A stretch of 40,923 nucleotides of DNA, from contig CANRNU010000020.1 of the NCBI GenBank assembly GCA_947632005.1, forward strand, positions 1-40,923, written 5' to 3'. A model generated the notes under the pieces. The model was given only the letters and a program-made list of their open reading frames with translations, was not told the DNA's origin and searched no databases. How positions within the stretch are numbered: the first letter of the stretch is position 1; the number at the start of each line of letters is the position of its first letter. The translations under genes were made by a program, and so were the position numbers. The stretch comes from an uncultured Oscillospiraceae bacterium. Its GTDB lineage: Bacteria; Bacillota; Clostridia; Oscillospirales; Oscillospiraceae. Shown piece after piece: positions 30,624 through 33,824 of this stretch.

Positions 30624-31844
30624 TCACCGGTCCGCAAAGGAGCATTTCTCCCGGGGCATCTCCTCGGCTTTGGCCGCGCCCATATAGCGGATGGCCTTTT
30701 GACCGTATTTGGCGCGGATGGCATCTACGGCGGCGTCGATGCGGCGCAGGCCGTCCCGCCGGACATAGTCGGTGAACATGTCCGTCTGCTCCGGGGCGTT
30801 CGCGGGACTGAGGGAGGCCAGCCGGAGCCCCAGGCCCCGTAGCGGCGCAGGCCAGGCGTGCAGTTCCCGGAACAGGGCCATGGCCCGCAGGTAGAGCTCC
30901 CGGGTCAGGTCTGTGGGCCGGTCCAGATGGACCTGATGTCCGGTCCAGTGAAGGGTGCCCGCATCCCGGATGGCTACCTCGATGAGCTGGGTCCGGAGTT
31001 TGGCCTCCCGGAGCCGGCCGCCCACTTCCTCGGCCAGAGCCAGCATCACCGCCCGCACATCTCCCTCACAGACCATGTCCCGGGGTGGGGTGGTGGAGTT
31101 GCCGATGCTCTTGGCAGGGGGAAGGCAGTCAAAGCGCCGGACGGGGCTGTCGTCCCAGCCGTTGGCATAGCGGTACAGCATGAGGCCGCTTTTGCCCATC
31201 CGCAGACGAAGCATCTCCGGGTCCGCCGCGGCCAGCTCCCCGATGGTGCGGATGCCCATGGCGCCCAGGGTCCGGGTGGAGGCAGGGCCTACGAACAGCA
31301 GGGCGTTCACCGGCAGGGGCCAGACCGTGTTCCGGAAATTGGTCCGGTCAAAGACCGTCACTGCGTCGGGTTTACGATAGTCGGACCCCAGTTTGGCAAA
31401 GGGCTTGTTCCAGCTGACCCCCACGCTCACCGTGAGCCCCAGTTCCCGGCGGATGCACCGCCGGATGTCCTCCGCCGCCAGATACCCATCCTTATGGGCG
31501 TGGCAGCCGGTGATGTCCAGCCAGCTCTCGTCCAGACCAAAGGGTTCCTGCAGGTCTGTATACCGGCTGTAGATGGCCCGGCAGGCGTGGGAGTAGCGCT
31601 CGTATTTCTCATAGTGAGGCCGCAGGACGATCAGTTCCGGACACAGCTGCCTGGCCTGCCACAGCACCATGCCGGTCTTCACGCCACAGCGCTTGGCCTC
31701 TTCGCTCTTTGCGAGAATGATGCCGTGGCGGGCCTGAACATCCCCGCCCACCGCCACGGGCTTTCCCCGCAGGTCGGGCCGCTCCAAAAGCTCGATGCTC
31801 ACATAGCAGGCGTTGATATCCGAATGTAGTATCGTCCGTTCCAT
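30624..31844 (-). CDS. dinB: Y-family DNA polymerase (DinB/Pol IV-like)
   Basis: 406 residues. Catalytic carboxylates are Asp9 in ILHSDINACYVS and Asp105-Glu106 in FGLDESWLDITG, the same spacing as in E. coli DinB. Tyr14 occupies the steric-gate position that excludes ribonucleotides. Palm and fingers are followed by the HhH-containing thumb (GASTRTLGAMGIRT-like region, here PASTRTLGAMG) and the little-finger domain. It copies past damaged bases at low fidelity. Downstream of its catalytic core no clear beta-clamp motif stands out. It is divergent from a LexA/HdiR-like repressor with shared operator-like sites, suggesting damage-induced expression. Confidence 0.93.
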   Translation of the reverse strand: MERTILHSDINACYVSIELLERPDLRGKPVAVGGDVQARHGIILAKSEEAKRCGVKTGMVLWQARQLCPELIVLRPHYEKYERYSHACRAIYSRYTDLQEPFGLDESWLDITGCHAHKDGYLAAEDIRRCIRRELGLTVSVGVSWNKPFAKLGSDYRKPDAVTVFDRTNFRNTVWPLPVNALLFVGPASTRTLGAMGIRTIGELAAADPEMLRLRMGKSGLMLYRYANGWDDSPVRRFDCLPPAKSIGNSTTPPRDMVCEGDVRAVMLALAEEVGGRLREAKLRTQLIEVAIRDAGTLHWTGHQVHLDRPTDLTRELYLRAMALFRELHAWPAPLRGLGLRLASLSPANAPEQTDMFTDYVRRDGLRRIDAAVDAIRAKYGQKAIRYMGAAKAEEMPREKCSFADR

Positions 31845-31850
31845 GATCCT

Positions 31851-31879
31851 ATTATAAATCTCCTGATTGGAGAAGTAAA
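31851..31879 (-). promoter_or_regulatory. Predicted dinB promoter
   Basis: On the minus strand, TTTACT (31879-31874), a 17-base spacer and TATAAT (31856-31851). The spacer contains operator-like site 1 (31859-31873). The -10 ends seven bases before the ATG, so the transcript would begin at or next to the start codon (leaderless). Confidence 0.65.
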
Positions 31880-31953
31880 TAGAAAATTTCTCCTATTAAG
31901 AGGAAACTATTGCAAATATTCTCGCTGTGCTATATACTTCTCTTAAAAGGAGG
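31859..31953. promoter_or_regulatory. Three 15-bp operator-like sites between dinB and its likely repressor
   Basis: Site 1 TCTCCTGATTGGAGA (31859-31873) is a near-perfect palindrome. Site 2 TCTCCTATTAAGAGG (31889-31903) and site 3 TCTCTTAAAAGGAGG (31939-31953) fit the same TCTCYT-N4-RGAGR pattern. Centre distances are 30 and 50 bases. Site 1 fills the dinB promoter spacer; site 3 overlaps the repressor start point and ribosome site; site 2 lies just upstream of the repressor -35. Confidence 0.65.
31910..31938 (+). promoter_or_regulatory. Predicted promoter of the LexA-like repressor gene
   Basis: TTGCAA (31910-31915), a 17-base spacer, and TATACT (31933-31938). The start near 31945 falls inside operator-like site 3, giving an ~18-base leader with AAAGGAGG. 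Confidence 0.7.
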
Positions 31954-31962
31954 GCGACGGTC

Positions 31963-32637
31963 ATGTATGACGATATCGGCGGGAAGATCGCGGCGCTGCG
32001 GCGGCAGGCGGGCCTTTCCCAGAAGGAACTGGCCCAGAGGCTCACGGAGCTGGGAGAGCCTTTGTCCGACAAGGCGCTCTCCAAATGGGAGAAGGGGGCT
32101 ACGCTGCCCTCCGCCCGGCAGTTTCTCATGACGTGCTACGCGCTGGAGGTGTGGGACGTGTCGGGGGAATTCATGGGTACGGGCCTGGCCCGGGGGCTGG
32201 ACGCCGCCGGGCGGCGAAAGCTCCAGGAATATGCGGACCTCCTGCGGCGCAGCGGGCTGTATGAGGCCAGGCCGCAGAAGGGGAGAGCCATCCGGCTGTA
32301 TACATTGGCGGCCAGCGCCGGCCCCGGTCAGTTCCTGGACGATGGGGATTTCCAGTGGATGGATGCGGCCGACGCGCCCCGGCAGGCGGATTTTGCCGTC
32401 CGGGTGGCGGGGGACAGCATGGAGCCGAAGTATCACGACGGACAAGTGGTGTATGTGAAGGCGTCGCCGACGGTGCAGGACGGAGAGATCGGGCTGTTCT
32501 CCTGGCAGGGCAGCGGCTATATCAAAAAGCTTCACGACCGGCCGGATGGGGTGTTTTTGCACAGCCTGAATCCGGCCTATGCCGACATCCCAGTCTCAGA
32601 GGCGGGACAGCTCCGGGTGTTCGGCCGGGTACTGTAA
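31963..32637 (+). CDS. LexA/HdiR-like repressor (XRE helix-turn-helix plus S24 self-cleavage domain)
   Basis: 224 residues. The N-terminal XRE helix-turn-helix (about 7-62, LSQKELAQRLTELGEPLSDK) is joined to a C-terminal S24/LexA peptidase domain. The self-cleavage site is Ala119-Gly120 (LAASAGPG), the nucleophile Ser152 (AGDSMEPKYHDG), and the base Lys189 (GYIKKLH); the 37-residue Ser-Lys spacing matches LexA. XRE-plus-S24 proteins such as HdiR and phage CI cleave themselves when RecA is activated by DNA damage. ATG 31963 follows AAAGGAGG. It is divergent from dinB with three candidate operators, so autoregulation and dinB control are likely. AI-2E permease follows after 15 bases, likely in the same transcript. 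Confidence 0.9.
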   Translation: MYDDIGGKIAALRRQAGLSQKELAQRLTELGEPLSDKALSKWEKGATLPSARQFLMTCYALEVWDVSGEFMGTGLARGLDAAGRRKLQEYADLLRRSGLYEARPQKGRAIRLYTLAASAGPGQFLDDGDFQWMDAADAPRQADFAVRVAGDSMEPKYHDGQVVYVKASPTVQDGEIGLFSWQGSGYIKKLHDRPDGVFLHSLNPAYADIPVSEAGQLRVFGRVL

Positions 32638-32652: not shown

Positions 32653-33786
32653 ATGCAGATCAAGAAAAAGACCTGCCTGCGGTTGTGCGTATCGGCGTTT
32701 TTGCTGTTTTTGGCCATCTATTACTGGGAGGCGGCGTCGCGGTTTTTGGGCCTGCTGGCAGGGGCGTGCGTACCGCTGATCCTGGGGGCGGCCATCGCCT
32801 ATGTGATCAACGTGCTGATGGATTTTTACGAGCGGCACTATTTCCCGAAAAAGACGGCTGGACTGGCGGCCAAGAGCCGGCGGCCGGTGTGTATGCTGGG
32901 CGCGGTGCTGACGGTGGTGCTGCTGCTGTTCCTGGTGGCGCGCCTGGTGGTGCCGGAGTTCCTCTCCTGCGTCAATGCCCTGGTGCGGCAGGCGCCCCGG
33001 GCGGTGAACAAGCTGCTGGCGAATCCCACGGTCAAAAAGCTCATCCCGGCGGATATCGGGCAGAAGCTGGCCTCTCTGAACTGGGTCGAGCTGGTCGCGC
33101 AGGTGCGGCAGGTGCTTTTGAGCGGCTTCAGCGGCGCGGCCGACGCGGTCAGCTCCATCTTCTCCGGCGCGGTGACGGCGCTGTTTGCCCTCATCTTTGC
33201 GGTATACCTGCTATTGGGGAAAGACACGCTGAGCCGTCAGTGCAACCGGGTCATGGAGTGCTATCTGCCTGAGCTGTGGCAGAAACGGGTCCGCCATGCC
33301 CTGAGACTGCTGAACAGCAGCTTTCGTAAGTTCGTGGTAGGCCAGTGCACCGAGGCGGTGATCCTGGGGAGCCTGTGCATCGGGGGGATGATGCTCTTCC
33401 GCTTCCCCTATGCTACCATGATCGGCACGCTGGTGGGCGTCACGGCGCTGATCCCGGTGGCCGGCGCCTATATCGGCGCGGGGGTGGGGGCTTTCATGAT
33501 CCTGTCCGTGTCCCCGGAGAAGGCCCTGTGGTTTTTGGTGTTCATCGTGGTGCTACAGCAGCTGGAGGGGAACCTCATCTATCCCCGGGTGGTGGGCTCC
33601 TCCATCGGCCTGCCGGGCATGTTCGTGCTGGCAGCGGTCACGGTGGGCGGCGCCATGTTTGGCGTGCTGGGGATGCTGGTGGGCGTACCGGTGGTGGCGG
33701 CCCTCTATCAGGCCCTGCGGGAGGATGTGGACCGCCGGGAAAAGCTGGACATCGCCCCGCCGGACCTGAACATCATGGAAGAATAA
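32653..33786 (+). CDS. AI-2E family transporter
   Basis: 377 residues with about eight membrane segments: an N-terminal pair (about 7-55), a soluble region (about 110-180) and a C-terminal group containing ALIPVAGAYIGAGVGAFMIL and the family-typical QQLEGNLIYPRVVG with SSIGLPGMFVLAA. Members are diverse permeases (ion or small-molecule exchange); the AI-2 name reflects one E. coli member, so substrate is open. It is 15 bases behind the LexA-like gene with AGGAGG between, so it may be damage-regulated too. A terminator follows. Confidence 0.9.
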   Translation: MQIKKKTCLRLCVSAFLLFLAIYYWEAASRFLGLLAGACVPLILGAAIAYVINVLMDFYERHYFPKKTAGLAAKSRRPVCMLGAVLTVVLLLFLVARLVVPEFLSCVNALVRQAPRAVNKLLANPTVKKLIPADIGQKLASLNWVELVAQVRQVLLSGFSGAADAVSSIFSGAVTALFALIFAVYLLLGKDTLSRQCNRVMECYLPELWQKRVRHALRLLNSSFRKFVVGQCTEAVILGSLCIGGMMLFRFPYATMIGTLVGVTALIPVAGAYIGAGVGAFMILSVSPEKALWFLVFIVVLQQLEGNLIYPRVVGSSIGLPGMFVLAAVTVGGAMFGVLGMLVGVPVVAALYQALREDVDRREKLDIAPPDLNIMEE

Positions 33787-33788
33787 AA

Positions 33789-33824
33789 CAAAAGAGAGAC
33801 GGGCGCTCGCCCGTCTCTCTTTGT
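33789..33824. terminator. Bidirectional terminator
   Basis: CAAAAGAGAGACGGGC pairs with GCCCGTCTCTCTTTG around a GCTC-type loop. It serves the AI-2E gene on + and the SPFH-RHH unit on -. Confidence 0.85.

Follow-up and report, generated by a model that had tools for sequence, protein, structure and literature searches.

Operators predicted between dinB and a divergent LexA/HdiR-like repressor in uncultured Oscillospiraceae

The dinB-repressor locus and its predicted operators

The window, the whole 40,923-nucleotide stretch analyzed here, represents contig C20 of a 77.6%-complete draft genome (2.32 Mb, 90 contigs) whose close relatives are uncultured Oscillospiraceae MAGs. Within it, dinB (30624..31844, minus strand), encoding a Y-family DNA polymerase of 406 aa (Pfam IMS 6.7e-39, IMS_C 1.9e-21), is divergent across a 118-bp gap from a gene for a 224-aa XRE-S24 (LexA/HdiR-like) repressor (31963..32637, plus strand; Peptidase_S24 1.1e-23, HTH_3 1.4e-06). 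An AI-2E family permease gene (32653..33786, plus strand; Pfam 2.3e-47) lies 15 bp past the repressor stop and is followed by a terminator-like hairpin (33791..33822), with a 14-pair match plus T tail on the minus strand and a weaker one on the plus strand. Among 35 genomes of the genus, a full repressor orthologue (76-100% identity) was found in 24, the window counted, and G034 harbors only a piece of it at a contig end; a dinB orthologue (76-100% identity) occurs in the same 25 genomes. The remaining 10 have neither orthologue, their dinB matches being weak, with a 41% fragment in G007 as the best. The gap measures 117-132 bp in the 25 genus loci.

In the original prediction, the permease also appeared to belong to the circuit. 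Where the contig extends past the repressor, the permease follows it in 23 of 24 genus loci (in L058 the contig ends inside the repressor), and it is probably carried on the repressor's transcript in this genus. In L051, however, the repressor is followed by a terminator-like hairpin and a different gene, and the DNA downstream of 57 distant loci (L141-L197), some with little of it, yielded no permease match; membership of the permease in the operon thus appears to be confined to this genus and to be incomplete even there.

Our promoter hexamers agree with those proposed originally for both genes: TTTACT-17-TATAAT for dinB (31851..31879, minus strand), with the -10 ending 6 nt before the ATG in the window, and TTGCAA-17-TATACT for the repressor (31910..31938, plus strand), with a 17-bp spacer in 25/25 genus loci. 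Four dinB promoters with a TTTACA -35 were missed by the strict pattern and were taken from the alignment. Superimposed on these promoters are two predicted operators, O1 (31859..31873), within the dinB promoter spacer and reading TCKC-N7-GAGA in all 25 genus loci, and O2 (31889..31903), just 5' of the repressor -35 and reading TCKC-N7-GAGR in all 25; the window O2 ends in GAGG, is therefore missed by a strict GAGA pattern and was taken from the gap alignment. These correspond to sites 1 and 2 of the original prediction, which had placed them in the same promoter positions. A third element, missed at the time, is the predicted half-site O3 (31920..31934) within the repressor promoter spacer, where a YCKC left arm (23 TCKC, 2 CCKC) lies exactly 31 bp from O2 in 25/25 genus loci, with looser half-site words also matching at +29 and +33 (8 loci each) and +27 (one locus). 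The right arm of O3 is TATA/GATA-like and overlaps the repressor -10; given its weak score as a full site (8.2 down to -13.2 across the genus loci, -9.0 in the window), we call it a putative half-site. With O1 and O2 separated by 30 bp in 23 loci and 31 bp in 2, the O1/O2/O3 spacing of 30 and 31 bp is near three helical turns, and predicted operators are shared by the polymerase gene (O1) and the repressor's own gene (O2/O3) in 25/25 genus loci.

The original prediction had instead put its third operator at 31939..31953, covering the repressor start point, with center spacings of 30 and 50 bp. In its favor, this site has a window score of 14.8, which approaches that of O2 (16.7) and greatly exceeds that of O3 (-9.0) by the same matrix. 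Yet its scores fall to -2.5 to -48.9 in the 24 other loci, it is missing in 24/24 relatives including the 91%-identical L031, and its right arm is the Shine-Dalgarno sequence of the repressor, whereas O3 is kept in 25/25; we therefore rejected it as a conserved operator, along with the 50-bp spacing, and consider it very unlikely that O1, O2 and this site are the working set. Site 3 may be due to chance or to a gain in the window's lineage, the latter being conceivable because of its high score relative to O3, and it might add to binding there.

The pattern from which those sites were drawn, TCTCYT-N4-RGAGR, has 4 matches in the window vs. 0.17 expected, with 0/100 shuffles reaching 4, a statistic that is post hoc since the pattern came from the same window sites. 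Across the draft genome it has 40 strand-matches vs. 5 for the reversed pattern, with two perfect palindromes counted on both strands. Because of these 40 matches, the 15-mer string alone does not mark a regulon; the more informative test is conservation, which O1 and O2 show at the gene pair.

Catalytic residues, LexA and the reach of the operator in the genus

With an XRE/HTH_3 N-terminus joined to a Peptidase_S24 C-terminus, the repressor has the architecture of LexA-like S24 repressors of the COG2932 type, including the Ala-Gly bond and the Ser-Lys residues. A119, G120, S152 and K188 show no variation in 24/24 genus rows, nor in any of the 50 rows of a wider count (9 genus, 41 others; L182 and L183 left out). 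The first three residues had been named correctly, but the lysine had been placed at 189, a position that varies; it is K188 that faces the first Lys of UmuD 'VKKL' in the alignment, which we take to be UmuD K97. The sites, their spacing and conservation, the gene linkage and the intact catalytic residues can be read from the sequences themselves.

The repressor is not a full-length LexA by the TIGR00498 model, scoring 32.5 bits against a cut-off of 110.95 and matching only profile positions 112-195. In the genus, none of 35 genomes (13 of them at least 90% complete) has a protein passing this cut-off, and no listed match reaches the LexA N-terminus. Among 27 relatives, three passed and eight had a match including the N-terminus, and LexA is therefore patchy in the family. 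RecA is found in the window genome at 534 bits. Ten genus genomes (G012-G015, G017-G019, G022, G023, G030; L060-L067 and others) harbor a further S24 protein whose match to the LexA model, at 87-107 bits, is confined to the C-terminal part; it was not found in the window's draft genome.

The circuit had been called compact, and the genus data are in line with this. A model built from 30 O1/O2 sites and run on the 35 genus genomes, with 150 candidates scored per genome, placed every listed match better than E 0.38 in the dinB-repressor gap, bearing in mind that these sites match by construction and that weak sites could be missed. No match in the 10 repressor-less genomes was better than E 0.43, with six of them lacking any up to E 5. 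Across these searches for a wider regulon in the window's genome or genus, with the 15-mer, a two-mismatch consensus and the model over 35 genomes, nothing outside the gap stood out. A site-like match inside dinB (31702-31717) was dropped, as it varies at synonymous positions among relatives.

Related operators, dinB leaders and repressors across the family

A match at E 1e-45 or better occurs in 39 of 300 Oscillospiraceae genomes, representing 19 of 106 genera. From the best 80 of 205 confirmed relatives, 23 (L118-L140) belong to the same genus and the other 57 (L141-L197) were examined. Eleven of these, at 49-52% identity, have a divergent dinB (L141, 142, 147, 148, 150, 153, 159, 166, 169, 170, 171; L170 and L171 are near-copies), and each carries three sites: O0, positioned over the dinB Shine-Dalgarno, O1 and O2, mostly of the form T[AC]TC-N7-GA[TG]A, although looser O1 arms (ACGC, TCTA) had to be allowed in four of the eleven and a TGTC arm of O2 in one. 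Site spacing in these loci is 30-32 bp, except for an O0-O1 distance of 41 bp in L141. We summarize the relatives' operator as TMTC-N7-GAKA with the 30-32 bp spacing kept. At three dinB-adjacent loci with 31-38% identity (L183, L185, L190) no such operator was seen. Over L141-L181, whose rows are related and not independent, an operator precedes the repressor -35 in 29 of 41 loci and is absent from 12 by the rule used; a half-site is found at +31 in 18 of the 29, all other offsets from 20 to 44 together accounting for 6, and the distance from O2 to the -35 varies from 2 to 9 bp.

The operator was also found in trans. Among 20 genomes having no dinB beside the repressor, nine carry it at the promoter of an unlinked Y-family polymerase: seven by pattern, each inside a promoter-like match (G042, G046, G048, G050, G051, G052, G054), as in TTGATT-TTATCTTATTAAGATAG-TATACT, together with G044 and G039; shuffled regions contained 0.01-0.07 operator sites each. 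Outside these nine, G049 has a TGTC operator variant at its Y-polymerase, recognized by eye only. No operator was found by pattern at the Y-polymerase of seven genomes (G035, G037, G038, G040, G043, G047, G053), and G036, G041 and G045 had no Y-family polymerase match to the query. IMS domains are present in both unlinked polymerases tested. In G042 (L264 2227-2600), the unlinked polymerase is followed by a small gene without a Pfam match that, we presume, resembles YolD-like proteins.

A second model, built from 39 relatives' sites and run on 25 genomes, placed all but eight of its matches at repressor, divergent-dinB or Y-polymerase promoters, as judged from the match list, many of the matched sites having built the model; three of the 25 genomes (G038, G049, G061) had no match. 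Five of the eight outliers are single sites, and one outlier, G064:C9, is located ~390 bp 5' of a Y-polymerase. The remaining two are pairs of operator-like sites, each pair with a spacing of 31 bp. One pair, in G058:C27 (L255/L275), adjoins a small HTH-like ORF and an integrase gene of phage type, and the repressor may also touch a mobile element there. The other sits in a long gap in G062:C19 (L261/L276), upstream of what we take to be a glutamate dehydrogenase gene. Separately, a three-site ladder in G047 (L174/L274, 2237-2491) faces an 84-aa protein without a Pfam match and not dinB.

Could these repeats simply reflect promoters and Shine-Dalgarno sequences within a gap that is short and conserved, and not be bound by the repressor at all? 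The arms do resemble Shine-Dalgarno sequences, some arm columns overlap the -35 and -10 hexamers, and the same-genus gaps are short and closely related. However, several features argue against this explanation, which we regard as highly improbable: 1) conservation of the arms extends outside the hexamers; 2) the dyad recurs with other arm bases at 43-53% identity; 3) neighboring sites remain 30-32 bp apart even though their distance to the -35 changes; 4) the dyad recurs at unlinked polymerase promoters.

The relatives also differ from the genus in the dinB leader. Within the genus, the -10 stops 6 nt short of the dinB ATG in 22 loci and 7 nt short of it in 3 (window 31844-31856), and the expected start point would therefore be at or adjoining the ATG, which makes a leaderless dinB mRNA probable. 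Outside the genus, the 11 divergent loci have their dinB -10 about 28-40 nt out (20 or 29 in L147) and a Shine-Dalgarno-like motif that begins 10-16 nt 5' of the start codon. Codons 2-11 of dinB show unusually little variation in the genus, at a mean of 1.64 bits vs. 0.33 for codons 41-119, and CAT, TCG and GAT (codons 6-10, 31815-31828) are each synonymously fixed in 25/25 loci of this GC-rich gene. The first 36 nt of dinB fold more weakly than synonymous random versions in 25/25 loci (mean z 2.1), with a GC of 0.44 vs. 0.70 beyond codon 20, while the same comparison at the repressor gene start gave z 0.69 (19/24). Since the three codons are also common, though not fixed, in leadered relatives as judged by eye, they are not tied to leaderlessness alone; this conserved stretch at the beginning of dinB has no second exact copy in the draft genome. 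Weak RNA structure at the dinB start appears to be the better reading of the fixed codons.

Repressor residues 36-37, which we take to be in the recognition helix, are D-K in 24/24 genus rows; in the others, position 36 is N in 39/41 and position 37 is Q in 40/41. Neither TATC nor GATA arms occur in the O1 and O2 of D-K loci, whereas N-Q loci mix TATC/GATA with TCTC/GAGA arms. A strict operator switch between NQ and DK was rejected, given that TCTC/GAGA sites are also found with the NQ repressors of L142, L168 and L177. Because N-Q loci carry both arm types and D-K loci only one, the operator of the genus appears to have become narrower on a single branch, and not to have been exchanged for another. 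In a tree of 52 repressors, with 9 forks open and some branches very long, the dinB-adjacent ones are spread, with 8 changes vs. a shuffled mean of 16.5, which fits an old repressor-dinB pair with repeated losses. Elsewhere, dinB-like genes (45-47% identity) are divergent from distant S24 repressors (32-39%) in G020:C7:8857-10860 and L208, one of them with an internal stop, and such related pairs may move around.

Taking these data together, we tentatively propose, as a possibility short of an even chance, that Oscillospiraceae have their own LexA-independent translesion regulon, comprising one repressor lineage and three-turn TMTC-N7-GAKA ladders that act in cis and in trans on the promoters of Y-family polymerases. 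Within the window's genus, this regulon would have shrunk to one locus, with the operator narrowed to TCKC/GAGA together with the two recognition-helix residues (NQ to DK), and the dinB leader lost with the operator over its Shine-Dalgarno, such that the polymerase would be made from a leaderless mRNA that could be translated without a Shine-Dalgarno under stress.

A proposed switch and its known counterparts

For the locus itself, we consider it probable that O1-O3 form a LexA-independent, self-limiting local damage switch acting on dinB and the repressor; binding, cooperativity, RecA-driven cleavage and induction by DNA damage are what we infer in this proposal. Dimers of the XRE-S24 repressor would bind operators about three helical turns apart, with O1 occupancy blocking dinB, and O2 and the weaker O3 conferring autorepression, perhaps aided by contacts along one DNA face. 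Upon DNA damage, RecA on single-stranded DNA would trigger cleavage at A119-G120 by S152/K188, thereby opening both promoters and allowing the polymerase to be made, until newly made repressor shuts the switch once more. The switch would serve the dinB-repressor locus only in the window's genus, while in other Oscillospiraceae the same operator would also act at unlinked Y-family polymerase promoters.

A repressor could control dinB and itself via O1-O3 with a trigger other than RecA or DNA damage, e.g. as a co-opted phage-type repressor that answers another signal or mainly keeps the locus off. The best PHROGs match of the protein is indeed a phage-type transcriptional repressor, the operon permease has no known link to repair, and IrvR of Streptococcus mutans, a LexA-like S24 relative, is reported not to need RecA and to lie outside the RecA paradigm (PMC7101444). 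However, the invariance of the cleavage site and Ser-Lys pair in 50/50 rows, the choice of translesion polymerases as targets in cis and in trans, and the reported response of the similar HdiR and FddR circuits to DNA damage (PMC8565304, PMC13148647) make such a trigger unlikely in our view, and we favor the damage switch.

We found no description of the control of error-prone polymerases in LexA-lacking gut Clostridia in the open-licence literature, nor a treatment of the SOS response and LexA together with Oscillospiraceae, a bile-salt paper joining LexA, the SOS regulon and Ruminococcaceae. The locus supplies a named operator, a spacing and repressor residues that lend themselves to direct tests in relatives that have been cultured. 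It is also a natural example of a repressor and its operator changing along one branch, and its stress-polymerase gene is probably leaderless although the relatives of that gene have a normal leader.

Canonical LexA shares with the window repressor the S24 domain, the Ala-Gly cleavage bond, the Ser-Lys residues and damage-gene targets, but the N-terminus here is XRE-type and not the LexA winged helix. The operator also differs, in that the conserved dyad at the promoter is TCKC-N7-GAGA and not the SOS box CTGT-N8-ACAG of Escherichia coli (PMC8565304); that the operator is unlike the usual LexA box, as originally claimed, extends to the published HdiR and FddR motifs. UmuDAb of Acinetobacter, a genus without LexA, is likewise an S24 repressor of error-prone polymerases, but it differs in its unusual DNA-binding part, its corepressor DdrR and its core-centered operator (PMC11332147). 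The non-canonical LexA of Bacteroidetes, with a CI-like N-terminus and an S24 domain, regulates dinB/umuC genes, one tested regulator facing an error-prone polymerase; S24 domain and polymerase targets are thus alike, whereas its CTAA-N5-TTAG operators and variants differ from the dyad conserved here, and its regulons are wider (PMC8565304).

FddR of Francisella, in Gammaproteobacteria, is an autoregulated S24 repressor with HTH_3 (PF01381) that is related to lambdoid repressors and is divergent from dinB in two species, with binding shown (PMC13148647). The S24 plus HTH_3 repressor facing dinB is common to both systems, but the FddR operator, GTG-N11-CAC, is not the dyad found here. HdiR of Lactococcus and Streptococcus, bacteria without LexA, is a self-cleaving XRE-S24 protein that represses its own gene and that of a UmuC-type polymerase (PMC8565304, PMC1592510), and thus resembles the present system in repressor type, in targets and in the absence of LexA. 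In contrast, its operator consensus is tttATCAGtTtttCTGATaaa (PMC1592510) as opposed to TCKC-N7-GAGA, and the window sites, compared by eye, do not have the ATCAG..CTGAT of HdiR proper; the TATC/GATA arms of the relatives resemble the HdiR outer bases, but the spacing differs. Streptococcus loci among the relatives are only 25-31% identical, and the portions of the HdiR accounts at hand make no mention of a three-turn ladder (PMC8565304, PMC1592510). Although the original prediction was wrong about site 3, about the spacing of that site and about which lysine is catalytic, it was right in kind: judged from sequence comparison, the system is of the HdiR/FddR kind, conserved and local, with a predicted operator and three-turn ladder of its own.
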